A stretch of DNA of 64,000 nucleotides from Isoetes taiwanensis. Lineage: Eukaryota > Streptophyta > Lycopodiopsida > Isoetales > Isoetaceae. The number at the start of each line of letters is the position of its first letter. Position 1 is the first letter of the stretch. The notes below the pieces were generated by a model. The model saw nothing but the letters and a program-made list of their open reading frames with translations. It did no database searches and was not told the origin of the DNA. The DNA is taken from contig JAJEKV010000299.1 of assembly GCA_021234155.1 (NCBI GenBank), positions 62,001 through 126,000 of the forward strand. Reading direction: 5' to 3'. Position numbers and translations under genes: made by a program. Below, piece after piece: positions 1 to 62,593 of this stretch.

Positions 1-170
1 TCTGGGAAGTGATCATGTGAAGATCCTAGTTACCAGTTGCCATTTCAATGACGAAGCATTACCTAGGAGGCATCCTGATGGAAACACAGTCAAAGAAAGC
101 ATCGAAACCTTTGTTGCATGACCAGTAATTCGCTTAAAAAAGGTAAGGGTTTCATTTATTCGAAAGGAAT
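1..170. other. No gene seen at left edge
   Basis: No open frame, RNA gene or repeat that I can support lies in this edge segment. Confidence 0.5.
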
Positions 171-172
171 AA

Positions 173-222
173 AGGAAGGAAGGAAGGAAGGAAGGAAGGA
201 AGGAAGGAAGGAAGGAAGGAAG
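173..222. repeat. (AAGG)n microsatellite
   Basis: About twelve uninterrupted AAGG units. It directly abuts a copy of the GGCCTATGGGACC-type dispersed repeat. Read on the minus strand, it is that repeat's 3' tail, (CCTT)n, so it was probably seeded by retroposition. Confidence 0.9.
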
Positions 223-229
223 AAATTTT

Positions 230-300
230 TAACGTCCGCGGAACCCAATCGGGTTATGGAACCCACAAGTACAAGACGGGACCGAAGTCCCTAACCAGAA
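230..300 (-). repeat. Dispersed retroposon-tail repeat, copy A
   Basis: Contains the diagnostic pattern GTCCGCGGAACCCA...TTATGGAACCCA...AAGTACAA seen again near 5.85, 9.9, 10.26 and 22.05 kb. Orientation is inferred because the simple-sequence tail lies at the low-coordinate side. It may be the 3' end of a non-LTR retrotransposon or a SINE; no coding part is attached. Confidence 0.55.
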
Positions 301-749
301 TATGGACCGAAGCCCTTACAAACAAAATAAAGCATAATCACCATGGCCCAGATTAAAAACCACATGGGAAAAAACATTTGCCAGGATGACTACATATCCA
401 AAAACCCATGTTATTGCAAGAAGCAACAAGCATACCTCCAACAAACAGAACTTCACCAAACGCCTCCGAACCGTAACCTCTTCACAACGTGTGGCCGAGG
501 ATCGGTGCGAAGCTTCACGCGACGCGCTAAATCTCCATCTTTCGCTAAAACCCGGAGCAAATAGATGCTGGTGCAAAGATCCCGGTGCTGACCCAATCGG
601 GGCGTTTCGATCAAACCACTAGACCATAAGAGCCGCCACCGAGAACAGGTCAAGTCCCTAAACCCGCAGGCGACTACACGCAAAAGCGGTGGCCAGGGCA
701 CCGCTGAAGTTGAAAACATGCGCATCCAATAGGCCCGAACGCCAATCAC
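301..749. other. No gene recognised
   Basis: Short overlapping open frames occur on both strands, but none has a recognisable motif or a codon pattern that stands out. Confidence 0.4.
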
Positions 750-955
750 CCAGGCGCTCAGGGAAGGCGGCGCTCAGGAAAACGCTCAGGGAAGTCGCTC
801 AGAGGAGGTGCATCCTCACTAGGCTGAAGCGCTCCCTCCCAGGCGCCACCCATCACTGCACCTCCCAGGCGCCACCCTTCACTACACCCAGACGACCAAA
901 CAGGCGCCCAGGTGCTCAGGCAGGCGCCCAGCGAGGCGCTCAGGCAGGCGCCCAA
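750..955. repeat. GC-rich degenerate minisatellite
   Basis: Words such as CAGGCGCTCAGG and CAGGCGCCCAG recur irregularly across about 200 bp. Local GC is far above the surroundings. The open frames on both strands here are by-products of the repeat. Confidence 0.6.
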
Positions 956-1748
956 GGAGAGAAGAGGATAGGAAGATGCATCAGAAGAAGTACATTGAGT
1001 ACATCTTTTATATTATAAAATTATAGCGTAAGTATGTATGTCATGCATCAAACATGGAGGGCTCATATTGTGCCATGTGGCATGCCACGTGTACTTTTTT
1101 AATGCCAAAAGGTGCTATAGGCACTCCTCAAAAAGGTGTGTCGTCCATGGAGACCTAATTTGAATGACCCCGATTTGATTTAAGCGAGCCAACAATAAAA
1201 GATGATGATGCCACGTCAGAAGGTTCTTTAAATTATTATTTTTTTTCGCGAGGGCGGCTATGGCCGAGCTCTGCTGTTGTTGAACCGGATGGGCCCTAAG
1301 GGGTATAATAGCGGCCATAAGGCGTTATCGACTCTGGATTTACAGTTCCAGCAGAAGCTCCTTCATTGGTTGTCGCTAGAGGTAAGCAGATCCTTAAACA
1401 AGAATTAAGCTTTTTCATCATCCCTCTTTCTGTTTCTTTGCCCCAATCTTCCCTCTTTGCGTTTTTGAGTGCTTTATAACGCTTTATTTCCTTAATCCTG
1501 GAAGATGCTTACGAGAAATTCCTGCTGGGACCAAAACCAAGTGGAGGGCTTTAGCTACATCAAATTTGGTTGTTGAGTAAGAGATTAGAAATATACTAAG
1601 GTGCTCAAGCTGATTCTGTCATATGTATAAAATTAATAGGCCTGCAGACCAGACCATTCAGTCAAAATTTCAAAACTATAAGGCCTGCAGACCAGACCAT
1701 TCAGGAGTTTACAAAACACTAGACACTCTACATTTATAGATCTGTGTG
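956..1748. other. AT-rich stretch with one direct repeat
   Basis: No gene seen. A 24-bp direct repeat beginning AGGCCTGCAGACCAGACC occurs at 1638-1661 and 1681-1704. Confidence 0.5.
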
Positions 1749-2231
1749 TTATTCCTCAGTAGTATCAAATGCTGGCACAGGAGAAGCTGGCACAGCAGAA
1801 GTACAAACAAGAGAAGCTGGCACAGTAGAGGTTGGAATAAGAGAAGCTGGCACATAAGAATCTGGCAAATTAGATGGTGTAGCTATTGGGCTATTACCCA
1901 AAATGGCTTCGAGCTCTACAATTCTCATTCTCACCTCTATTTCAAGCCTCTCCACGACGTAACTCCTTATGAATAAGCCCATGCTTGTAGCCATTCCCGA
2001 ACACATCTCACCAAGAACGATCATATTATGGAAGTAAATATCAAGATCTTCATGAAACTCGAAGATTGGTATAGGCTCTGGCACGAAATGTCCTTCTGGC
2101 ACAGGAGGAACTTCAGTTGAATACACGCCAGGCGTGTGTTCAAACTGCTCAAACTCAACGTCATTAGAGTTTACGCTAGGCGTGGGAGGTGGGGGCGCCT
2201 CCTCTACCACCTTGATCATGAGTCCTATCAC
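1749..2231 (-). CDS. Unrecognised 160-aa reading frame with VPASL repeats
   Basis: An open frame on the minus strand starting at a MIGLMIKVVEE-type N-terminus. It has a proline-rich segment (about residues 11-17), an acidic/aromatic middle and a C-terminus with roughly 10-residue repeats, VPASLIPTST / VPASLVCTSA / VPASPVPAF. I do not recognise the family; composition resembles retroelement- or PMD-like plant proteins, but no motif proves it. Two copies of the local palindromic word (near 2124 and 2172) lie inside the frame. It could be a chance or decayed frame. Confidence 0.3.
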   Translation of the reverse strand: MIGLMIKVVEEAPPPPTPSVNSNDVEFEQFEHTPGVYSTEVPPVPEGHFVPEPIPIFEFHEDLDIYFHNMIVLGEMCSGMATSMGLFIRSYVVERLEIEVRMRIVELEAILGNSPIATPSNLPDSYVPASLIPTSTVPASLVCTSAVPASPVPAFDTTEE

Positions 2232-2352
2232 TACTGAGCGAAAGAGATAATAATTGATCTACACAAAAAAAAAAAGATAGAAAAGAAAAGCAGATTTGAA
2301 CTGGAAGGAAACTCGAGATTAAGAGATTAATAGTAGTAACTGTACATTAGTG

Positions 2353-2713
2353 AATTCACGCCAGGCGTGAATTGCAATAATTTATAATTTAAACTCTTTG
2401 AATGCAATAGTAGAATTAGTAGAAGGCACTAGTTGAATGCAATAGTAGAATTAGTAGAATTAGTAGACGGCTTGGCATATAGGAGATTAATATTAAGAAA
2501 ACTAGCCATTATATCCAATTCACGCCAGACGTGATCAATTGGGCTAATTTAAAGTTTAATCTCTTTGAATGCATTAATAGAATTAGCAGAAGTCTTTTGT
2601 GTAAGAGATTAATATTAAGAAAACTAGCCATTGCATGCAATTCACACCAGGCATGAATTGGACTAATTTACAATTTAAACCTTTGCACACAAACTTAGTC
2701 CATGTCTGGCGTG
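2353..2713. repeat. Tandem repeat carrying the CACGCCAGGCGTG palindrome
   Basis: Two and a half units (2353-2516, 2517-2638, 2639-2713). Each opens with AATTCACGCCAGGCGTGAAT or a variant and shares later blocks (CTCTTTGAATGCA, GAGATTAATATTAAGAAAAC). In the first unit the palindrome has perfect 10-bp arms around a single A. Confidence 0.8.
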
Positions 2714-3530
2714 ATTTTAAAAGGTTGAGCTCTCTTAAAACTAAGATTGAAAGAGCAAGAATTCAAAATAGTTTCTGAACTTAGACTTGTCCGGGATGTG
2801 TTTAGCAAATTAGAAGTTAAAAAGATGTCAGGCTTACCTTGATCAGCAACTCCAAACTGCTTACCTTGATCTGCCACAACCTAAGAAAAGAACTCTGGAG
2901 GCGCCTAAGCAGAGACAAAGAAAAAAAGATGGTTTTTCCAGCATTAATGTAGAACTGCTAGTTAAAGCAAGTTGAAGAAATTAAAGTATAGCATTGAAGT
3001 GAGAGTAGAAACAAATTACAAAAATTAAGTCTTTATATTATCAGAAAAATATATTACATAAGGAGGGTCTTTTATTAGAGTTACCCAACTCTTTTATTCA
3101 AGATAAAAAAAAGTTCAAGGCAGTTCCCAGGGGATTCACCTTTGATCAGCGTATAACCCATGAGAGTTCAACGGAGGGATGTTTTTTGGACCATTTGCGT
3201 ACGTATACTTAGGGGTTAGGGGTGTTTTTAGGCACTGATTTGGAGCAATATCTATACATAGAGGGGTCAAATTGCCTTTTGAAATTGCGTATACAAGGGG
3301 GGTTTTTTGCTACCCTCCGAACGCAGATGCCATACCCCCCTTAGGAGGCAGTTAAGGAGATGCCTAGGTCCATTCAAAATCTTAAGTTGAGGCCTTTTTT
3401 GAAGATGCCCAGCTCGCTTTCATGAACTAAAAAAAAAATAAAAAAAAATAAAAAAAAAAACACTCATCCTTAGCCCTCATCCTCCTCGTCCTCCAATTCT
3501 TCCTCTTCGCTTTCATCTGCCATCTCCTGA
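2714..3530. other. No gene seen; A-rich tract
   Basis: An interrupted poly(A)/A4T tract lies at about 3429-3461 and could mark the 3' end of a retroposed sequence. Nothing else can be supported. Confidence 0.4.
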
Positions 3531-3989
3531 AGGATGGCTTCTGCAAGTCTTCATCATCAGAGGAGGAGAGGGCATTCAAGATTATCTGCTTCTTCTCTTC
3601 TTCCAATTCCTCCCACCACTCCTCATCTGCTTCCTCTATTTCTTCTACTTGTTCGATCTCCTTCTCGAGCTCTTCATCAGAAACTGCTGGTGTATGGGGG
3701 GACTCAGGGCTGCTGGTGCTGCTGCTGAGATTGGGATTTCATGGGCGAAGCTTGCCCTCAAGAAAGAGCTCCTCGCATTCCTCCGGATTGTGGTGCAAAA
3801 CATGGGGATATTCTTGCCTCCCTTGCGGGTGGTGCAACCATCTCTATAATAGATTCACAAATAAACAAGGATTTCATTGATAAGGCAACCGAGAGAGAAA
3901 GGACCAGTGATAACGCAAGCGACTCTGGAAATTCCCAGGCTTGTCAAATCAACACTAAAATAATGTCATAGTGAAGGACGTAAAGGGAC

Positions 3990-5219
3990 TAACAGAAAAT
4001 GCACTTCTAATAAACAAAAGAGGACGGAGATTGGGGGTAGCAAAGGGGAGAATGACGACGATGACAACAGCGAAACTGAAGATGAAAGGTATGGCAGCAC
4101 GCTTATCACGCTTTCATTTTATGTAATAATAATGAAATTATTTCAAGTGTAGCTGTACTTAGTATTGTTCGCCTTGCAGATGAAATCGTGTCAAGCGTGA
4201 TTTAGTTTATCTTCAGTCTTAAATTAAATCATGTCAAGCATGCTCTAATTATATTTCATTGTCAGGCTAAACCACGCCAAGAGCGATTTAGTTAAGCCTT
4301 TATAACACCAAAATAAATCATGCCTGGCGCATTTGTGTTGTTGCAATGTATGCTAAAAGGATGTGCATGCTTATCATATTTTACTGACTGGATACCATGT
4401 TTGATGTTTCAGCTTCCCTTGCGTTTCTAACAAGATTGTAGTGTTCGACCTAAACGAAGTTCTTTGTAAGACTTTTTCGAAGAATAAAGCGGCTCCAGAT
4501 CAGTTTCACCAGACATCAGTAGAATCAAATTCCAAGTGGATCTATCCGCTGCCGCACTTGAAGGAGATGCTAGATGAGGCACTTAGGTTATTTCGAGTTC
4601 GTATTGATCATCTATGGAACTCCAGAACATCAAGGATACTGTGGAGATATTGAGGGAAATGAGTAGACATTGGTTGACGGGTGAAAGCATGATAGGGTAT
4701 ACATAAAAAATTATCTAACAGGTGCCTTTCTCTATACTTCTGTAGAAGTACTCAAATGTATATTAAAGTACCTAAATTACATCCTTATCCAAAACTAGTT
4801 GTACTAAGATTAAGAGTGACAAGTAGACAATATTCTAAGGTACTTTTTAACACCAACAAGATCTCAAAAACTGAACTACATCATCATCTTTGAGTATCCA
4901 CAGGTACTTCAAGTAATGTCCCGATTCATGTATACCCTAGCTTGCTTTAGGCCTGACCTTTTGGGATCAACACAAACGTGTGAAGTTCACTAATCCTAAA
5001 GATCCCACAAGCAAGTCTATCTTCATCAAATACTTGAGTAACGTGATGAACAAACTTGGTATCCATAATAAGGATGATATAATCATAGTGGATGATTATG
5101 CTCTCAAATGCTTCCATAATCAAATGCAAGCCCTAAATCCATCATCTCATGATCTAAAAAATTTTGCGACAGTTGATTTTCTGGTCAAGTTTATGCCTAT
5201 TATAACAACTGATGTTTAG
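3990..5219 (+). pseudogene. FCP1/NIF-like phosphatase-domain gene, broken
   Basis: Three segments read together as a HAD-type FCP1-homology protein. An acidic exon (KGENDDDDNSETEDE) ends at a GT donor after 4088. A second exon starts after the acceptor at 4412 and reads KIVVFDLNEVLCKTF. A third exon from 4951 reads FWDQHKRVKFTNPKDP, then KDDIIIVDDYALKCFHNQ, and stops at 5219. The family's catalytic motif is DxDx(T/V); here it is DLNEV, so the second aspartate is replaced by Asn. A frameshift in exon 2 near 4635 separates WNSRTSR from TVEILREMSRHW. Upstream exons are not resolved. Known family role: dephosphorylation of Ser-phosphates such as the RNA polymerase II tail. This copy is probably inactive. 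Confidence 0.6.
4183..4335. repeat. 43-46-bp tandem repeat in the FCP1-like intron
   Basis: Four units begin at about 4187, 4230, 4273 and 4319. Each carries a diverged palindromic word such as CGTGTCAAGCGTG, CATGTCAAGCATG or CATGCCTGGCGCA. The array lies wholly inside the predicted intron 4089-4412. Confidence 0.7.
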
Positions 5220-7699: not shown

Positions 7700-7890
7700 T
7701 TTGGAGGGGGTGGGGGAGACTCCCTCCCCTTGCCACTTCCCTCCCCTCCCCTTGCTCTCCCTCCCCTTGCCCCTTCCCCTCCCTTCCCTTCCCTTCCCTT
7801 CCCCTTCCCCTTCCCCTCCCCTTCCCTCCCCTTCCCTTCCCTTCCCCTTCCCTTCCCCTTCCCCTCCCTCCCCTTGCTCTCCCTCCCTTG
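7700..7890. repeat. Polypyrimidine/polypurine tract
   Basis: About 170 bp of nearly pure C/T on the plus strand (CCCTT, CCCCTT units). The long open frames on both strands here are low-complexity artefacts. The tract adjoins the 3' side of the reverse-transcriptase remnant. Confidence 0.85.
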
Positions 7891-13790: not shown

Positions 13791-15270
13791 TGTAATGTCC
13801 CCTACAACTATATGATGTCCCAATTATAAGCATAAGAGATCCCCCCTTGGTCTAACTCGAACCGCATATGATGATCAAGTATTTGAGAGGACACTAAAGT
13901 ATCATTTCCCATTCCTTCTCTAGGTCAACCTATACTACGAAAGCATGTAGAATAACATCACATAGCAATAAATACAACAAATACATAATAAGCCATCTCG
14001 AAGGCTAGTATCACCATCATCAACTACCGCATCAACAACATGCATATGCATCCCAGAGGATAATCCTATCTAGGCCCAGACTCCATGAAGATAACTGATG
14101 ATCCAATTCTCAAGGTAGCAACAAACAAAGAATATTGGAGCTGGTTGGCATAGAATGTTGCCTCGGGTTGTCCACTCCATCTGCCCTATGTGCATACTTT
14201 GTAGAAACACATCGAGCTACGATTGTTTTTTGCTAGAGACGTGATCCGAGAGGATCATTTCGAGTTTATTCCCTTCTCCCACGGTCCAATGAGGCAGGCA
14301 TGAGACACGTCTCATCCAAGCAATATTATGTCAATGCATGCGAACTAGAGGATCAATATGCATCATCTCTGTACACAACTTAACCTCGTTAATTGTCTAG
14401 GAGGTTCCAAGCCCATACTCTACATGCACGCGGTTGCAGGCTATTACCCCAATAGACAATCCAACATCAAGATACCAACTGTATCCCCCTATTCATCCCA
14501 ATCAAGGCACGCCATTGACAGTAGACAGACCCTTGTGTACAAGCCAAATTTATATGGAAATTAAATGAGGCATTTCATTAGAAGCATCTTTATTAAGGCT
14601 TCTAAATCTCTAGCACCCCTTTTAATACACAAGAGTTGCAGTATTCAACTATCTCTTCATAACAAAACAAGAACAACAATTCTAATCCACAAATCATGCA
14701 TCTGCAAGTGAATGATTAATCCATTGATTAATTTAAAAATTATAGGGTGGTTCTTCCACCTCTAGGAGGAATCTAAGAGCAATGGAAGATACAAATTCAC
14801 CTAGAATAACCCATCTAGGTGACTGAGTTACTTTATCTATTCAGCCTACACCTCTTGAAGGCATTTTCATTGTCCTCTTAAGGGTTGTGTCTGCTGCAAT
14901 GCGTAGATTCTTTGAACGAACCTTTGCTGAGAATCCTCCCACTTGTTGCTGGTGAAGATGGATCTTTGATCCAAGTTCATAGGCGCAAATGGTAGGGTGC
15001 TTTTCCAAATGGGAAGCTAAAGGTCATCCTAGAATTTTGGCCCATTAATAGGCTAGGGTTTTATTTTTCATAAGGTCAGGTTATCCCATGTTCCCATGGT
15101 AAGAGGACCACCCCTTATACACTATAAATAATTTTTCTAACTATATGCATTCTATCATGCCTAAGAATGATATGCATGCATTTTTCCAAGGCGTAATGGC
15201 TAGTGATAAACGCGTCCTATCAGACCTATTGTATGAATGCATGACCTATTGAATGCAAACCCTTACTTTC
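13791..15270. mobile_element. Diverged Ty3/gypsy-type LTR (ends uncertain)
   Basis: Starts TGTAATGTCCCC, a common gypsy LTR terminus. About 370 bp in, it has CCACTCCATCTGCCCTATGT-GCATACTTTG, matching the solo LTR at 38,706 (CCACTCCAACTGCCCC...GCATACTTTG about 400 bp in). It ends somewhere near 15,258-15,290, right beside the minus-strand integrase remnant, which fits the 3' LTR of a minus-strand element. The right end and a target-site duplication were not found. Confidence 0.55.
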
Positions 15271-43720: not shown

Positions 43721-45165
43721 TTATTCTGTAACTTGCATGTCAACTTTAAACTGTTTAAACTTAGCTTCAGGAAGGGCTTTTGTGAAGACATCTGCAACCT
43801 GCTTTGCTGTGTTAATATACACCATCTCAATATACTGTTTGCTAGCCAGATCTCGAATGAAGTGGATGTTTAATTCAATGTGCTTAGTTCTATCATGATG
43901 AACTGGATTTTTCACAATTGCTATGCAGCTCTGGCTGTCAGTAAAAATTTGAGTTGGACCTGCTTGTTTGCAATTTAATTCTTCTAGCAATCTTCTCAAC
44001 CAACATATCTCTTTGGCAACTAAAGATGAGGCTGTGTACTCAGCTTCAGCTGAAGACATGGCAATTGCATTCTGCTTTTTGCTTTTCCAATTAATGGCAC
44101 CTCCATCTAAGAATACAACAAATCCAGATGTGGATTTCCTGTTTGACAAGTCCCCTCCCCAATCAGCATCACTATATGCACATAACTGAAGATTGTCCGA
44201 ATTGAATGTTATTCCATGTGATTTTGTCCCTTTAAGGTACTTTAAAACTCTTTTACCTGCAATCCAATGATCTTTGGTCGGATTATGGCATCTCCTGCTC
44301 AAAATGTTTACAATATAAGAGATATCTGGCCTTGTGTTGTTTGCCAGATATAGCAAACACCCTATTAAAGATCTATATGGGACATTCTCCATTTCCTTGA
44401 TGTCCTTTTCAGTGAGATCTTTTTCTTCTGTCAATCTATGTCCTGGTACTGCAGGGCATTTTGCTGGATGTGCATCAACAAGGTTGAACCTTTTAAGCAT
44501 ATTTTCTATATGTTTGGATTGCTGCAGTTTCAGTATCTTTTGGTCTCTGTTTCTGCATACTTCTATGCCCAAGAAGTGTCTTAGTTCCCCTAGATCTGAC
44601 ATTTCAAATCTTGAACTTAAGATCCCTTTACAATGATTCAATACTCTTGTATGATTTGCTGCCATAATGCAGTCATCAACATACAAGGCTATAATGCAAA
44701 AGTTTTCTGCTTGTTTGTACCTATAGAGGTTGCCATCATTTTTGAGTTTCTCAAACCCTTGTTCCTTAAGAAAGTTATCCATGCATACATACCACTCCTA
44801 GGAGATTGTTTCAGGCCATTATCTGACTCTATTTAGTCTCCAAACTTTATTGATTTGTTGCTCAAATCCACGGAGCTTGTTCCATAAAAACTTTTTTCCT
44901 CCGGTTTAGCATTAAGAAAGGCTTTTTTACATCCATGTGATGTAGCTCAAGATCTTGTGCATTTGCTATTGCAAGCAATGTCCTAATCTTTGGTTAATTT
45001 CACAATAGAGAGTACGTTTCCTCAAAATCCGGGCCCCTGTTTTTGAGTGTATCCTTTTGCCACAAGTCTTGCCTTGTATTTCTAGCGCCATCCGAATTTT
45101 CCTTAATTTTAAACAACCATTTGCAACCTACAACATTTTTCCGGTAGGGTAATCAACTAAGTCAT
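43721..45165 (-). pseudogene. copia reverse transcriptase / RNase H
   Basis: The 353-aa frame 44,782-43,721 covers the RT C-terminal half (CIIALYVDDCIMAA, the YVDD box; MSDLGELRHFLGIEV) and RNase H (YSDADWGGDLSNRKSTSG, AEAEYTA, TKHIELNIHFIRD, VADVFTKALPEAKF). The N-terminal RT half, 45,165-44,783, is out of frame with stops and seems to lack some codons (MDVKKAFLNAKPEEKSFYG then a jump to GLKQSPR). Inactive as it stands. Confidence 0.9.
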
Positions 45166-46810
45166 ATGTGCGAGTTTTTCTCAAAAGAATCTAACTCATC
45201 CTTCATGGCTTTAAACCACTGTTCCTTATGCTCACTCTCAATTGCTTCCTCATAAGACTGTGGTATTGGAACATTTTCAAGTATTGCCATAACTTGTTCA
45301 TATTCAATATGTTGCTTTTCTAACCTCCTACTTCTTCCCAATTCATTCCTACCATAATGATCAGCATTTTCATGTACGTTTTCCAGCAGCTTCTCTACTT
45401 GAGTTCTTCTTTTGCTGATGGCACCTAATGGTATAGTGTTGTTTTCAATGTTTGCTGCCTCATTATTTTCAGTGATTGTGTCATCATTTGGTTCTGCTAT
45501 CATGTTTCCTTCTTCCTGATCTGAGTCTAAATCTATTGCTTGCTGTATCTTAGTTTCAACCTTGTCTTTTTTGTCAAAATCTGCTTTCCTTTTATGCCTA
45601 TCTTTGTAGAACACCTGTTCATCAAACAAAGTATCTCTGCTAATAACTATTGTTTTGCTTTCTGGCACAAACACTCTATACCCCTTGGATTCTTCGTCAT
45701 AACCCACGAGGTAGCCAATACTTGCCTTGTCATCTAATTTCTGTCTTAATCCTTTTGGTACATGTACATATGTTAAACATCCATATGCTTTAAAATCATA
45801 ATCTATGCTAGCATTATCATTAGACCATAGCAAATCAGGTATGTTACCTTTAATGCTTTCGATGAGGGGGGGTTTGTTACGAATCATTATTGCGACCTTC
45901 AAAGCTTCTTCCCACGGGTTATTTGGCAAGCCACTCCTTTTGATCATTGATCTCACAACATCCATAATGGTCCTGTTTTTCCTTTCAGCTACTCCATTTC
46001 TTTGGGAATGTACCTGCAGGTTAGTTGCCTTCTAATTCCATGAGTGATGCAAAAAAGTCTGAATTTGGCTGATAGGTACTCCCCTCCTCTATCAGACCTG
46101 ATGCACTTCAGTTTTCTCCCTGATTCTCTTTCCATTTCATGAACATATTGTTTGAAAGCATTTAATGCTTGAGACTTTCTTTCTAAGCAGTAGACTTTGC
46201 ACTTCCTACTGAAGTCATCAATAAAAGATATGAAATATCTTTTATTTGTCCTTCCTTTGACATTTAATGGCCCACATAGGTCAGTGTGTACCAGATCAAG
46301 AACACCCTTTGCTCTTGTTTTGGATTGTTTGAAGGGTAGCCTGTTTGTTTTCCCAAGTATGCATCCCTCACACTTGAAGTTTTCTGATTTGATATCTTTA
46401 CAATTTAGCCATCCCTTTTTGGCTAAGTATTTCAAATTGTTGCAATGAGTATGGGCCAGCCTGTCATGCCAGATTTCAAATTCTGGAATATTTACAGTGT
46501 TAATACTGTCATGTCCCAAAGCTTTCATTTGGAAAAGATTGCCAACACGTTTTGCATGGAACTTCAATATATTATCAAAAAAGATATTACAACCTTTTGA
46601 GTCAAAGTTGACCTTATATCCTAAATCCACCAACTGGCTTACAGAAATGAGGTTTTTAATGATAGTGGGAACACACAATACATTCTCAATATCTACTATT
46701 TTTCCATCAAGATCTAAAAGTTGCAAAAGTCCCCTTCCTTCAATTTCTTGAGTATCTCCATTTCCAACTTGGATTCTTCTAGAATGAGTGGTTGAGACAT
46801 TTTTTAGCAA
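45162..46810 (-). pseudogene. copia GAG-pre-integrase and integrase
   Basis: Minus strand, two frames. Upstream frame 46,810-45,989: zinc HHCC region (WHDRLAHTHCNNL, CEGCILGKTNRLPF), then catalytic Asp in VHTDLCGPL and IRSDRGGEY. Downstream frame 45,965-45,162: MDVVRSMIKRSGLPNNPWEE onward; the Glu of GVAERKNR lies at the frame junction. A single frameshift near 45,990 separates them. Confidence 0.9.
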
Positions 46811-47950
46811 ATCGATGGATTGGACTCTTGATCTTTCAAGACTCCACTATCAACTACAAGAGTTTTGATTTATTAGCGGGGCTGATTTTGCTCAACAATA
46901 TTAAATGCAAGGCTTACCTCATCTTCATCATCAACATCAGATTTTTCCTTGTCTTCTTGCTCTCTTGCCACAAAGGTACCCGGTTGGTTTTACGCCCACG
47001 ACCCCTTCGAGCTGGTTCTTCCTCCTCTGCTAGTGGACCCCTTATTGTTCCCCTTGCCATGATCTTTTGGAGTAGGGCACTTAGCTGCAACATGCCCTTT
47101 TCCCCCACAGGTATAACAGTTAAATTCCCTTTTTAATTTTGGGCATTCACTCTTGAAATGCCCTGTTTCATGGCAATTGTAACATGTAACTTTCTTTTTC
47201 CCAGCAAACAGAATTTCAGGAGATTCTTCTCTTTCTCTTATGATCTTTATGCTCGAATTCTGTTCTCAGAATATTCTCTGCTTCTTCCCTAGATTTGCTC
47301 ATGTTTCTAATAAATAGAGACAGATTTTCATTTTCACTAACTGCCCTAGATATTTGGAGAACTTGGCTTCTTTCACTGACATTGACTCCAGCACCAGCTA
47401 AGTCAGCTATTATGTTATCAAATTGATTAAAAAAATCTGAAACATCTTCTTCCTCCTTTAGTTTCAGTCCCCTCAATTCATTTTCAAGCAAATCTATTTG
47501 GGATGAAGTCTTTTCTTCGTAATGTTTTAATAAAAAACTCCACATCTGCTTAGGACTTAAATTTCTCAACTTAAGCCTAATGGTAGGACTTACCTTGCAG
47601 GTAATTATGCCTTGAGCCTCCTTAACCTTTGAGTATAAGGACCTCCCAGTTCCTAACGTGGCCGCCGCCACGGTTGTTCCTTCAAGTAGTTGTTGCTCCA
47701 CGACCTGCATTTTCTCTCATGTTAACAGATCCCTCGAAAACAGGATTTTGGTAATAGTGTTCATGTTGACATTTGTGCCTCCATCTGGATCAACAAGATC
47801 CCAGAGTTCCTCAACTTCCAAAATGTGTTTCACAGCATCCTTCCACACCTGGAAACCTGGTCCACCTTTGTAGACCTCCACTGTGCTTAAGAGACTAGCT
47901 CCAAATCTGCTGGACATACTTAAAGAGCAAAAGAATAACACAAGGTTCAA
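46811..47950 (-). pseudogene. copia gag with two zinc knuckles
   Basis: The N-terminal frame 47,950-47,717 has YKGGPGFQVWKDAVKHILEV. The main frame 47,710-47,216 is the UBN2-type gag (LLKHYEEKTSSQIDLLENEL, DVSDFFNQFDNIIADLAGAG). Then, in another frame, there are two CCHC knuckles, CYNCHETGHFKSEC and CYTCGGKGHVAAKC (about 47,190-47,090). A stop and frame changes break it into three pieces. Confidence 0.85.
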
Positions 47951-58035: not shown

Positions 58036-59682
58036 CTAAGGGGCTATTTCATCCTGTAGAATTTCTTTGTAAACTACATTTGGAGTGAACCTCCTTTTGT
58101 TTTTTAGCAGTGCTCCTTGTCTTGAGGTTTCTTGAATGTATACCTTCACTCCGTGTTGTGTGGTGCACCTTGAGAATGTGACATAGAGCTGGCCGTGTGC
58201 GAATACTGGAGTTGGTAGGTAGATGCCAACGGAGGTCATTGACTGTCCTTGCGACTTGTTTATGGTCATCGAGAATGCAAGTCGCACGGGGAACTGTCTT
58301 CGCTTGAAGGGGAGGAGGTCGTTATCTGATGGCTCCAGTGTTATCCTTGGTATGAGGACCCGTGTTCCTTTGTAGGTGCTAGTGATTATTTCTGCATCTA
58401 TGATTCTTGGGTGCGCTTTGATTACACGGAGGCGGGTGCCATTGCAGAACCAGCCTTTGGGTTCATGTTTCTGAGTAGGATGATGATGGCACCATCCTTG
58501 ATGTGTAACTTATGCGGTGGCATGCCAGAAGGAGTCAGGTGGTTGATGAACTCAATTGAGAAATCCCTTGTAGCATCTTCGCCTTCTGCAATGATGGCAT
58601 CTATACTCGTGTACGTATGGAGTTGTCCATTCAAGCTTAGAAGGATCTTATTGTTGATTCTCAGCGTGTCTTCATTCTTTGGAGTCAAGATGGCCTTGTC
58701 ATACAGTAGGTGCACATTTGCCTCTGTTATTTCCTTGCCGAAGATGCTGTCAATCAAGTCGTCTTCTACCAAGCATTCTTCGGGTATCTCAACCAAGTCG
58801 CGATCGAGTCCTGACTCATTGTTCATCCGTTCCCCATTACCGAGTCGTAGCAGCCAATTTGAGAAGATTTGCTCGTCTTTTCCGACCCGCATATTTTGTC
58901 TTGGCTTGTGGGTTTTGAAATTAATCCACAACGGGTTTCTCTTGACACACTTCGAGATGATTGCTGTCTTTGTTGCACGCTTGATCACGGGCAATTGTTG
59001 TCGAAAATCGCCATCGGTGAGCAATAACATTCCTCCAAACGGCCTGTCATCTTGGCGTATCTCGCGTAGAACCCTGTCGATGGTAGTGAGTGCTTGCGTA
59101 TGTGTCATCCCCATTTCGTCCCATACCATGATGCTTGCCTTTCTAAGTACCTCTGCTTGTTGGCTTGTTGCACGTAGTGCAGATATTGCCTCTTGTGTGA
59201 GGTTGAGAGGTAACTTGAACGTCGAATGAACTATTTGTGCTCCCTTCAAGAGGAGGCTGGCAATGCTTGTCCAAACTATTGATACAACACCCATGCCGCA
59301 TCCTCTTAGTATGCTGATCAGAACTATTGAAGACGAATGTCTTGTCTGTGCCTCCTGGGCCGTCCACATTGATACATGGGGCTTGATGCTGGCTGATTGC
59401 ATCGAGGATAATGTCGGCTATGTGTTTCTGCTCCTTGTTGAGCTTTCCATAGTTTTCTTGCCCTTCTTTCAACTCCTTTTCTGCATCGAAGGTGGGTTCA
59501 TTTGGGAGATTGCCTAGAATGTCTATCCGTGGTTCTGGCAGTCCAAGTTGCTGGCATGTGCAGCTACTCATCTGGAAGATGCCGTCGATGTCCTTTAGTG
59601 CGTGGTTATAAGCCTGTTCTTGTGCCATCTTCTGTTGGTAGTCTTCTGTCAAGCTGTCCTTAAAGAGTTCCCATAGCTGCAT
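58036..59682 (-). pseudogene. Helitron PIF1-like helicase
   Basis: Motifs in order on the minus strand: Walker A GPGGTDKTF (Gly to Asp change before Lys), Walker B IMVWDEMGMTH, motif LLLTDGDFRQQLPV, then MTINKSQGQSM and VGIYLPTPVFAHGQLYVTFS near the end. Frames 59,682-59,143, 59,402-58,422 and 58,287-58,036 overlap, with frameshifts near 59,350 and 58,440. Known role: DNA unwinding during rolling-circle transposition. Non-functional here. Confidence 0.85.
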
Positions 59683-59733
59683 TGGATCTTGTGGGTCATT
59701 GTATAGGCAAATGAATGCGAATGTCTGGCATAG

Positions 59734-61683
59734 CTACACAGGCACCTGGAAGAGGCTCGCGTCTTCGAGCGTTTTCTCCCACTCGGCGTCGTCTTCCAGT
59801 AAGCCGAGCTCTTTGGCAGCTTCCTTGAAAGTCGAACATAGTTTTCCATTAACATTGCGCATGTCTTCGAAGCTGGTAGCGCCCTTGATATGTAGCAACA
59901 GGAGACGGAGGTAGTAGCGGTCACCGTCCTTAGGGCTCACATTGTACATCCGTGTGATAAGCTTGAATTTCCCCTTCCTGCTTTTCCAGCCAGACTGGCG
60001 TGTGAACTTATAATACTGTGGGATCTCTGGATAAGTGTACTGATGTGCATTTGGGTCGTTCCTATTTAGCTCAAACCATATTAACAGCATTGTTTGTTTC
60101 TGCATCTCTCGTTCGATGGCTTCTCTTTCGTGGCCTTCTTGATAGTAGATGGCTGGGTTGTTAGGCAGGTGAACAGGTAGCCTATATATTGAATGAGAGT
60201 TGCCATGCATCTTGAAGCCGAATAGCCTCCACATGGCTTCAGGTGCAGATACATATCTCGTGTCAAGGTATTGCTTGATCTCGTCCCAATTGAATGTGGA
60301 TGTGGGTTCATCTGTTGGCTCTACAGTGACCTTTATAGATGCTCGATCATGCCCTTTGTGGATATACTTGTAGATGTACTTGACGCTGCCGACACTGAAA
60401 CATTGCTCCACATTGATATGTGGAGTTAGCCATCGATTGTGGGGTACTATCCACCTATTGTCAATAGGCGTGTCACCCCTCATAAAGTGGCTTGTGTCTC
60501 GTCTTCTATACTCTGGATAGCCATTTGTGTTGACTCTAGTGTGCTCATTAAATGGTTTTGGAAATCCCTTTGTGCATTCCTTTGTCGAGCTTCCTTCCTT
60601 GACTTCCATGCAAGGAGCTTTAGGGTTGAGTGGGCCATATGGTCCATGGACCATATGCTTGATGAAAATCTCTCGCAGATTAGGGTTTTCTAGACATGGC
60701 ATCTCAGCACTCGTGATGCTGTCAATGGCATCGCTATCCCGAATTTTGTCTTCTTGCTCGAGAATCATGAGGAGGTGGCAATGTGGAAGCCCTCGCTTCT
60801 GAAACTCTATTGTGTACGTGTGCGCCTTCACCTTGCCCAAGATATCGTTATCAAAGAGGTCGTGGAAGAACGCCTTGAGCTTTGTGTGATATACGCGTGC
60901 AATCAAGTCGGGCCTATCATGTGGCTGTTGTCCATGGAGCAGATTGTGTCTAATCTCTATCCAATTTGAGTTGCAGGTAAATGTCACAAAATGTCTGCTT
61001 TGCCAAATCTTCGTATCAAAGCCATTGAGTCCTGGTAGTTTTGTTGCATTGCTCTTGGACTCCCATTGAACGAAGAAGGCACGATGACCAGCTTGCCAGA
61101 TCTTAAGCCTCTTCGCTCTGCTTCATGGTCTACGTAGTCGATGAGGCCTTGATACAGCTCAACTCGTAGCTTCCTTTGGTTTTGCCTGATCCAGTTCAGC
61201 CTCCACTCTCGAGTAGATGTCCACAATGAATTGTTGCGTTAGCTTGCCTGCACAAAGCAGTGGATTGCAAGTTGGGCTCCTTATTTCCAGCCGATAATTG
61301 TAGAATTGAAGCACACTTATATTTTCCTGCTTCTTTGAAGATGTTGAACCAAAAGATGTTTTTGCCTTCTTCATTCCTATTTTCCAGCCCTGATCACCAT
61401 TCGGAAAGAGAATGGGATAAACCAAGGGATCAATATTTGGGTCTGTGATTTGGATCTTCTTGAGACCGCCACCCTTTTGGTGTATGCGGATGTCTCTATC
61501 AAATGGCGGTTCACCATCTGGGTTTACAAATATAATTGCAACTTCGTTTGAGTATGATGGGTTGTACCTCTTATGGTCTAGGCTCTGGTCAGTGTTAAAG
61601 TACATCCTAATATCCATTACACCTTCGCCCGAACGTTGTGCCTGATCTTCTACCTCATGCATCATCATTGCGCAGCTCAACAT
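59734..61683 (-). pseudogene. Helitron Rep (HUH nuclease) domain
   Basis: Frame 60,987-59,734 has the HUH motif RGLPHCHLLMILEQEDKI and the two-Tyr motif VKYIYKYIHKGHDRA. Upstream frames 61,683-61,159 and 61,226-60,984 hold the usual N-terminal Helitron_like_N part (DPLVYPILFPNGDQGW). HUH and Tyr residues are intact, but two frame breaks separate the pieces. Confidence 0.85.
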
Positions 61684-62593
61684 CTAGTTCTTTGAGGAGA
61701 TGGTTGTCACAATTTGCATTCTGGGGGTTTTGAACTCGTGTTTCATGGGCGCAGTCGGCATCCAGAATATAAAGTTGGGAGTACGTTGCAGCTTGAGAAT
61801 CATCAGAATAAGCTGGCCCTACTCTATGATAAGTTTGCCCTTGGATCTTGAAACAGTACAGGCCATGGCCTTCGAACTGCTCGATATGTGCACCAAAGGA
61901 AGCAAAGGCCAGTGCACTATTGTAGGTCCTGATGTGCTGGTATAAATTATTGGCTTTTGGGTGTTGGCAGCTTAGTAACATCTGAATGAGATGGGGCATT
62001 GGTTGTAGAGGCTCCAACTTGATTTGCCCATCGTGACAACAGTTTGTACCATCATCCTTGAATGCTAATGCCCCACAATGCATGCATTCCTTGTTAAATG
62101 GCCCACAATGGTGTCGTTCGATCTGTGTGTTTTCAATAGTCCTTGCTACTCTGTATGTAGAAGGCTGGGCTCTCAATTGACGTTGATATTGTGCGAGTTC
62201 ATCAAATCTTTGTTGTTGTTCCTCTTTTGTTTCTGTTGCAGCAACGCGAGCACGCTTTTCACGTCGATGTCTGGCAAGTTCGGCCAATCTTTGTTGATTC
62301 TCCTCTACAGTTTCTGTGGCAGCTCTTTGGCGTCTTTTATCACGTTTTTGTTGTGCATTTACTGCCAATCTTTGCAATCGATGTTCTTCTATTTCTATAG
62401 TATCACGTTGCAACTTTCTTCTCTTGTAATTCTCTCTTTGTTTCCCCAATCGAATTTCACGTTCTTGAGCTGTCTCTGCGGCACGCTTCTTCCTGTACCT
62501 ATCTCTCGAAGTTGCAAGCCTTCTTTCTTCATCGTTCATGGCTGCAAGCCTTCTTTCTTGAATAACTGTAGCTTTGTTTTTTCTATAAGTCAT
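61655..62593 (-). pseudogene. Helitron N-terminal region with Arg/Glu-rich repeats
   Basis: 312-aa frame starting MTYRKNKATVIQERRLAAMN. Residues 1-145 are charged heptad-like repeats ((A)ATETxEExQQR), likely coiled coil. A Cys/His cluster follows (HHCGPFNKECMHCGALAF, NCCHDGQIKLEPLQP), as in plant Helitron proteins before the Rep domain. It ends at a stop where the next frame begins. Confidence 0.8.

Follow-up and report, generated by a model that had tools for sequence, protein, structure and literature searches.

The window analysed here is a stretch of 64,000 nt from Isoetes taiwanensis (assembly GCA_021234155.1, contig JAJEKV010000299.1, positions 62,001-126,000, forward strand), and all coordinates are relative to it. 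Near its left end lie ten copies of a short palindrome, within the remains of a transposon. The features are as follows; strand is given for the element body and the gene fragment, and mismatches refer to the ten arm bases.

1-3796, minus (gene orientation): body of a relic transposon of family A, which runs on in L030 for about 4.07 kb before the window begins
2120-2140: palindrome copy 1 (core 2124-2136), 0 arm mismatches, 9/10 pairs; in the central cluster of the relic, overlapping an open frame at 1749-2231 (minus)
2168-2188: palindrome copy 2 (core 2172-2184), 1 arm mismatch, 4/10 pairs, degenerate flanks
2353-2373: palindrome copy 3 (core 2357-2369), a perfect 21-bp site AAWWCACGCYNRGCGTGWWTT, intact too in the homologous copy L011:4809
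2480-2656: two-unit 122-bp tandem duplication carrying copies 4 and 5 (repeat family D5, 87% identity over 55 nt)
2517-2537: palindrome copy 4 (core 2521-2533), 1 arm mismatch
2639-2659: palindrome copy 5 (core 2643-2655), 2 arm mismatches, both of the CG to CA type
2697-2717: palindrome copy 6 (core 2701-2713), 2 arm mismatches
3125-3339: 215-bp later insert within the relic, 94.9% identical to L015:8381-8595
4183-4335: four degenerate palindrome copies (4187, 4230, 4273 and 4319), repeated in tandem every 43-46 bp ahead of the NIF exon (repeat family D7); NIF-upstream sites also occur in C19
4408-5207, plus: NIF/FCP1-like phosphatase gene fragment of the element, in blocks 4408-4635 and 4953-5207 (tblastn E=1.4e-21 and 1.7e-27)

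The main blocks of the relic body are 72-85% identical to the elements C19, C4, C24, C7 and E131, some short blocks being 61-70% identical; there is no alignment over about 179-1581 and 3125-3345, which are apparently later inserts. The NIF fragment, a homologue of which (L055:312-1022) matches PF03031 (E=3.4e-15), is oriented opposite to the remaining relic, and no TIR was recognised in the relic within the window. This copy of the element is decayed, rearranged and dead. The annotation of the FCP1-like gene in the window is to be corrected, as it is part of a transposon relic and not an ordinary host phosphatase gene.

The positions of all ten copies given in the preliminary description of this DNA were correct, with spacings of 48, 185, 164, 122 and 58 bp, then 43, 43 and 46 bp, and the best copy, said to have perfect arms of 10 bp, is indeed a perfect 10+1+10 palindrome at 2353-2373. 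The pattern given there, CAYGYCWRGCRTG, had 7 matches in the window compared with a mean of 0.04 in 100 shuffles; because both strands were counted, these 7 matches correspond to 5 places (2124, 2357, 2521, 2701 and 4230). With CACGCCAGGCGTG and up to 2 mismatches, 9 matches at 6 places were found against 0.27 expected. The six copies at 2124-2713 carry 0, 1, 0, 1, 2 and 2 arm mismatches, while the four copies at 4187-4331 are degenerate (3, 3, 2 and 3), and a place with 3 mismatches turns up roughly every kb in the rest of the window (63 outside 2100-4340). These four copies would not be credible but for their 43-bp tandem arrangement and for the better palindromes, at 15191 and 15232 with one mismatch each, that are found upstream of the same exon in C19.

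The genome-wide count proposed in the preliminary description gave 3851 forward and 3822 reverse matches of its pattern, compared with 55 and 56 for the reversed control. The symmetric form CACGCYNRGCGTG, with every place matching on both strands, was found at 4640 places, compared with 33 for its reversed control. CACGC-N3-GCGTG with up to 1 mismatch had 96 sites in 15 sequences; when the arms were permuted, each of the 19 resulting palindromes had 0-9. The centre triplets are highly variable and the arms hold. The site is a 21-bp two-fold symmetric one, AAWWCACGCYNRGCGTGWWTT, in which the half-site is fixed, the centre is free and the flank is A/T, and this is the pattern expected for a homodimeric DNA-binding protein. 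The suspected tie to tandem arrays was also borne out.

By its distribution, the palindrome is a hallmark of one superfamily of large DNA transposons and not a free-standing motif. Among the first 50 strict places listed, 46 lay within the superfamily, which disfavours a free satellite; alignment placed 42 of them there, and 4 were counted because they are about 1.2 kb or less inside a terminus. The other 4 places lay outside. The elements are 9-16 kb long, with a 31-bp TIR and 4-bp target duplications, and carry a DUF7869 (Sola-like) protein, an FCP1/NIF-type phosphatase gene and a protein that we call 'DGQHS'. Their termini read AACCATCATTC (AACCATC...). The TIR was found at 1332 forward and 1351 reverse termini, compared with 0 in controls, and at least 18 plus/minus pairs lie 9-16 kb apart among the 100 termini listed. 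Exact 4-bp target duplications without a shared target were seen for nine of ten end pairs, the tenth being offset by one base; two of the ten are not independent, because their flank is identical. The DUF7869 protein, which may correspond to a Sola transposase, matches the DUF7869 profile with E=1.2e-23, and acidic motifs in the open reading frame were seen by eye; a tblastn search of plasmids with the DUF7869 piece gave no match. In the titles and abstract openings of the literature searched, DUF7869 is not mentioned, nor does this element appear to be described there under NIF and transposons, Sola, or subterminal or palindromic motifs.

It had been stated that no nameable element would explain one dyad in two separate tandem arrays. 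The contexts proved to be parts of relics of one transposon superfamily. All three contexts described do exist, namely an open frame, a tandem repeat and a noncoding stretch before the FCP1-like exon, but they are not independent. Since they are relics of one superfamily, with the FCP1-like (NIF) gene among its own genes, the objection raised at the outset, that all copies might derive from one transposon family with a known terminal repeat, largely holds as regards the family (46 of the 50 strict places at the head of the list); it fails as regards the repeat, the motif being distinct from the termini. A terminal repeat of a small transposon is rejected likewise, because the termini differ and the sites are internal.

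The arrays lie outside the recognised coding blocks, which are touched by 5 of 100 sites. One location is a presumed DGQHS intron; others are 5' of the DGQHS gene and, farther out, towards the transposase gene, an order observed in family A alone. Arrays also precede the NIF exon, where the family B sites all have 2 mismatches. Introns and gene structure were deduced from colinear protein matches. All seven DGQHS introns contain sites, 1, 1 and 4 in family A and 3, 8, 8 and 10 in family B, against shuffle means of 0.01-0.08, although the single site (up to 1 mismatch) in each of two family A introns is a number that shuffles reach at times. When the motifs were masked, none of 12 cross-family comparisons of this intron between families A and B gave a match. 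Individual copies of the element have lost many of the palindromes or have them in broken form.

A first conservation test on related, non-independent copies showed the arms to be kept slightly better than the flanks (0.84 vs 0.79). As it was biased by the picking of intact sites, a polarised test of CpG retention was run on such copies, giving 0.725 for the arms, 0.526 for the flanks and 0.510 elsewhere, values possibly inflated because BLAST may pair array units motif to motif. An excess retention of CpG in the arms is suggested.

Several explanations of the palindromes were considered. The motif is a clean dimer-type site, and plant elements can carry host-factor sites; a palindromic host motif might have been borrowed as an enhancer for expression in particular cells, a use with which the four strict places outside the superfamily would agree. 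We consider this unlikely: a promoter would not usually have up to ten arrayed sites within an internal intron, and with the other 46 of the first 50 places in the superfamily, the sample gives no sign of wide use in host genes. Transposase-complex sites for synapsis or excision, like the subterminal repeats of CACTA elements, seem quite unlikely. In families A and B a half-site with the same A-rich flank, AAAA(G/T)CACGCCA, does lie some 43 bp in from the end on the NIF side; however, it is altered in L015 and L047, and its sharing may simply be due to homologous termini. The full sites (up to 2 arm mismatches) are internal, none lying within about 0.9 kb of an end in E131 and E834, though one in L014 is about 0.5 kb from an end.

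A selfish minisatellite, that is, a functionless palindromic unit expanding by replication slippage and template switching, would account for the regular array units of 32, 34-38, 43 and 50 bp, for the spacer units in both orientations in the C37 and C38 arrays and for the turnover from 3 to 10 sites in one intron. It is nevertheless very unlikely, because the palindrome is kept in introns that are no longer alignable between families and because its centre changes while its arms stay. In addition, eight sites from three clusters of one element, C2a, have unrelated flanks; only four neighbouring pairs exceed all 100 shuffles, their high scores arising because the flank windows overlap, and four others are at the 4-6 of 100 level. 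The variable centre, together with the many sites that by eye have no flanking duplication, also disfavours the earlier suggestion of a relic of repeated small insertions, and a tiny palindromic insertion with an AATT duplication is disfavoured by the absence of that duplication at many sites. The least credence is given to transcribed RNA hairpins serving splicing control, as a small-RNA source or in intron structure. Arms of up to 10 bp could pair, one cluster lies in a presumed intron, and the bases 1, 9 and 10 from the centre are paired more often than independence predicts (0.61 vs 0.45, 0.55 vs 0.49 and 0.63 vs 0.49). Yet at the six core pairs of 165 sites, read on the DGQHS/NIF sense strand, G-U numbered 71 and A-C 74, a comparison diluted by the central-cluster sites, which may be transcribed from either strand; that G-U is not in excess argues against a hairpin, including the hairpin seed proposed earlier, and positions 7 and 8 are A/T without complementarity (paired 0.35 and 0.41 vs 0.32 and 0.40 expected).

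The closest known parallel is with the VANC arrays of VANDAL elements in Arabidopsis, which are MULEs. As far as the consulted parts of PMC5735166 and PMC10398659 describe them, these are likewise dense arrays of a short motif in tandem repeats, with rapid gain and loss and enrichment in their own family. The excerpts of PMC5735166 place VANC21 motifs as tandem repeats in the VANC21 and VANB21 introns and upstream of VANA21; the arrangement here is similar, with arrays in introns or noncoding stretches of accessory genes and ahead of the transposase gene, the structure being taken from protein matches and the order relative to the transposase seen in family A only. In the same excerpts the VANC21 motif, YAGTATTAY, is of 9 bp and one orientation, whereas the present site is a 21-bp palindrome, and the present elements are not MULE-type, having the DUF7869 protein and a 4-bp target duplication. 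Binding by VANC and hypomethylation are known for VANDAL, and the likeness proposed here is one of site layout. En/Spm and other CACTA elements are also large plant transposons with a repeated element-specific motif, which according to the parts of PMC2613891 consulted can form stem-loops (soybean case) and is recognised by a DNA-binding protein (TNPA) that the element encodes in addition to its transposase. Their motifs are subterminal, with CACTA termini and a 3-bp duplication; the internal arrays, AACCATC... termini and 4-bp duplication found here do not place the present elements among them. The Sola superfamily, as outlined in the available part of PMC10741241, has a 4-bp target duplication, variable TIRs and some members above 15 kb, is not common in flowering plants, and is presented there without mention of palindrome arrays or a NIF gene. 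Both the 4-bp duplication and TIRs (31 bp) are present in our elements.

Binding by a protein was among the options of the preliminary description and is the best reading here too. It is probable that the palindromes are multi-copy dimeric recognition sites for an element-encoded regulator, in a VANC-like layout in an unrelated transposon class; the arrays would most likely be docking sites for a paired DNA-binding protein used for self-control of the element. A protein encoded by the element, whether DGQHS, the transposase or a product not seen here, would bind the arrays and control the element's own genes. Its likeliest role would be either like that of VANC in VANDAL21, leaving the noncoding regions open to transcription and free of methylation, or autoregulation of the kind exerted by TNPA in En/Spm. 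Tandem duplication and inversion of units of about 32-50 bp make the arrays longer or shorter. The binder could also be a host factor.

Among the Pfam matches of 26 element protein pieces (intron-bearing genes were scanned in pieces), neither a known DNA-binding domain nor a VANC-family protein was found. The DGQHS protein scored weakly against the DndB profile (E=0.055, 13 bits, cutoff 29.1), had no sequence match in PDB and gave uninformative structure models (mean pLDDT 42 and 36), so that its assignment as a ParB/DndB (DGQHR) protein is not established. L066:4-1218 holds a DGQHS frame that is open for 404 aa, measured stop to stop. It is very doubtful, though conceivable, that a ParB/DndB-like DGQHS protein loads on about a dozen self-encoded noncoding palindromes, as an anti-silencing or partition-like system of its own in a non-VANDAL class, with protein and arrays co-evolving.

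If regulation by an element-encoded binder is right, self-encoded arrays of binding sites in introns and intergenic stretches would have arisen more than once in plant transposons (VANC in MULEs, and the DUF7869/Sola-like class), and transposon-coded control of silencing would be a general strategy. The system is testable, because one genome holds thousands of sites and many element copies whose ends match, of which some have an open DGQHS frame.

All ten copies of the near-palindrome that the preliminary description reported between positions 2124 and 4331 were confirmed at their coordinates, and the degenerate pattern proposed there matched 7 times in the window, at 5 places, where 0.04 matches were expected. 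In the whole genome (1.66 Gb) this pattern was counted 3851 and 3822 times on the two strands, compared with 55 and 56 times for the reversed control. The symmetric form CACGCYNRGCGTG was sharper, occurring at 4640 places versus 33 for its control, and in a set of 15 sequences the true arms were found at 96 places versus 0 to 9 for each of nineteen permuted-arm palindromes. The palindrome is a real and strongly enriched feature. Six of the window copies are good, with 0-2 of the ten arm bases mismatched. The other four, at 4187-4331, have 2-3 arm mismatches; these degenerate copies carry weight only as a decayed tandem of 43 bp, at a place where another element has better copies.

To identify the carrier of the palindrome, we took 20 stretches of 10 kb from the genome-wide matches, with clusters preferred, together with five neighbours. 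Long repeats around the sites were common to 12 of the 20 stretches (L008-L013, L016-L020 and L026), and L014 and L015 join these through their termini; the other six (L021-L025 and L027) contain single matches and showed no element homology around the site. The two ends of the repeat on contig 19 lie 15.85 kb from each other and carry a 31-bp terminal inverted repeat, AACCATCATTCATTTAAATTGGATTTATGTC. With up to 3 mismatches, this terminus was found 1332 times in forward and 1351 times in reverse orientation in the genome (control, 0), and 18 plus/minus pairs lie 9-16 kb apart among the 100 matches listed. Exact 4-bp target duplications were observed in 9 of 10 end pairs examined: CAAG (twice, on the same flank), AGTA, ATAG, TTAT, TTTA, ACCT, CTGG and TAGC. 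In the tenth pair the duplication was shifted by one base. Since its termini are inverted and flanked by 4-bp duplications, the repeat that carries the palindrome is a DNA transposon of the TIR type. It agrees in duplication length and size with Sola elements as characterized in PMC10741241.

Among the matches listed, 46 of the 50 distinct strict CACGCYNRGCGTG places, which come from the first contigs and are not a random sample, belong to one superfamily of such elements, 42 by alignment and 4 (in L014 and L015) by their position, no more than about 1.2 kb inward from a terminus. Of the 4 listed places outside it, three (L059, L061 and L063, about position 395-412) are in a second repeat family with a single strict CACGCTARGCGTG site, which may be due to chance or mean that another repeat uses this site too.

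One layout is common to E131 and E834, two copies 11.7-11.8 kb long:

Genes in the common layout of the element
Near the left end, minus strand: NIF gene, the FCP1-like gene of the preliminary description, with an NLI-interacting-factor-like phosphatase domain (PF03031, E=3.4e-15)
Adjoining the NIF gene, minus strand: DGQHS gene, in several blocks, encoding a protein with an IDGQHS motif
Near the right end, plus strand: DUF7869 protein (E=1.2e-23 in E131)

The DGQHS gene forms a 404-aa open frame on another contig (L066); a first look at the genome gave 4128 candidates, and all of the 150 scored match. Its protein had a sub-threshold match to DndB (E=0.055) and no match in PDB, and neither of two structure predictions gave a usable model (mean pLDDT 42 and 36). 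DUF7869 may be the Sola transposase domain. Divergent DUF7869-like ORFs were also seen at L054:3664-4602 and, recognised by motif only, at L025:2748-2954 and L014:8872-8943; this transposon class looks diverse in the genome.

Families A and B of the superfamily both carry sites at three locations: the presumed intron that follows the DGQHS exon, the stretch immediately 5' of the gene, with one site in A and two or three in B, and a third location further on in the same direction. In family A this third location falls in the stretch that separates the DGQHS gene from the DUF7869 gene and is equivalent to window 2124-2713. Upstream of the NIF exon, the location to which window 4187-4331 belongs, family A has one-mismatch sites (copy C19), whereas every site in B carries two mismatches. 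Coding blocks (38,437 bp) are touched by 5 of 100 sites with up to 1 arm mismatch (15 sequences, 203,767 bp); four of these fall at the 5' margin of a query that runs from stop to stop, and the context of the fifth, at 2766 in copy C24, matches the E131 edge site. The palindromes are best explained as arrays of noncoding sites that belong to a single transposon superfamily.

Sites were present in all seven DGQHS introns compared (4, 1 and 1 in family A; 3, 8, 10 and 8 in B; shuffle means 0.01-0.08), and allowing two mismatches raises the count to 2 and 6 in the two introns with a single site. Outside the motif, blastn at E 0.01 between the three A and four B introns was empty in 12 of 12 comparisons. 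CpG retention was 0.725 in the arms (95% bootstrap 0.675-0.773, 148 CpG) versus 0.526 in the flanks (259 CpG) and 0.510 elsewhere (2367 CpG), with the ancestral state backed by a third copy; the copies are non-independent and array alignment may inflate retention. Unpolarised identity was 0.84 in arms, 0.79 in flanks and 0.67 in centres. The arrays turn over: one intron has between 3 and 10 sites across the family B copies, and 32-bp units occur. Spacer units occur in both orientations in the arrays of copies C37 and C38, as do spacers between palindromes at L017:4898-5230 and L019:4912-5260, suggesting inversion or template switching at palindromes. The flanks of different clusters, compared within one element, showed no clear relation.

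The consensus of 165 copies with up to 2 arm mismatches is AAWWCACGCYNRGCGTGWWTT, around a variable centre (CAG, TTG, TAA, CCG, TGA, TCA, ATA and others). Pairing is above chance at positions 1, 9 and 10 from the centre and not at positions 7 and 8 (A/T). In the six core pairs, G-U pairs are not in excess (71, versus 74 A-C pairs) on the sense strand as defined by the DGQHS and NIF genes, a count that the sites of the central cluster dilute. Judged by this pairing pattern and the lack of G-U excess over A-C, the site looks more like a symmetric protein site than an RNA stem. In both families, a half-site flanked by the same A-rich sequence is found about 43 bp from the end on the NIF side; it is altered in L015 and L047. 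It gives a weak hint that a putative binder might also contact the terminus.

Among known systems, VANC21 of VANDAL21 comes closest as a precedent. Its short motif is tandemly repeated within the introns of VANC21 and VANB21 and also upstream of VANA21, the arrays are gained and lost fast, and the element's own protein binds the motif and causes loss of DNA methylation (PMC5735166, PMC10398659). The array layout is similar here, whereas transposon class and motif differ. TNPA of CACTA elements, whose sites are subterminal (PMC2613891), is a second precedent. From these two precedents we infer that the palindromes may be dimer sites for an element-encoded regulator; the arrays would probably act as a self-control or anti-silencing system.

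The window itself contains a decayed family A copy and a gene fragment:

1-3796, plus about 4.07 kb upstream: family A relic, gene orientation reversed
4408-5207, opposite orientation to the relic: NIF-gene fragment following the relic body

The main blocks of the relic are 72-85% identical to other copies and some short blocks 61-70%; about 179-1581 and 3125-3345 are without alignment, and no terminal repeat was recognised. The three contexts previously distinguished for the copies (open frame, tandem repeat and intron) are present and are not separate, all belonging to decayed copies of a single superfamily. The copies at 2124 and 2172 do lie in a possibly coding 160-aa open frame (1749-2231, minus strand), which no Pfam family matches. 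Within the relic, a 215-bp insert at 3125-3339, 94.9% identical to L015:8381-8595, looks like a small mobile element, and the stretch of about 1.4 kb at about 179-1581, which has CAGGCGCC-type tandem repeats and breaks the alignment with the closest copy (L011), is probably a later insert. Judged by eye, the open frames of the window point to a plant as host. Elsewhere in the window there are a long pyrimidine-rich tandem array of TCCCCT-type units at 7720-7877, within a stretch of higher G+C, and, by eye, a broken Copia-type retrotransposon (43721-47710, minus strand) and a Helitron-like open frame set (58422-62593, minus strand).
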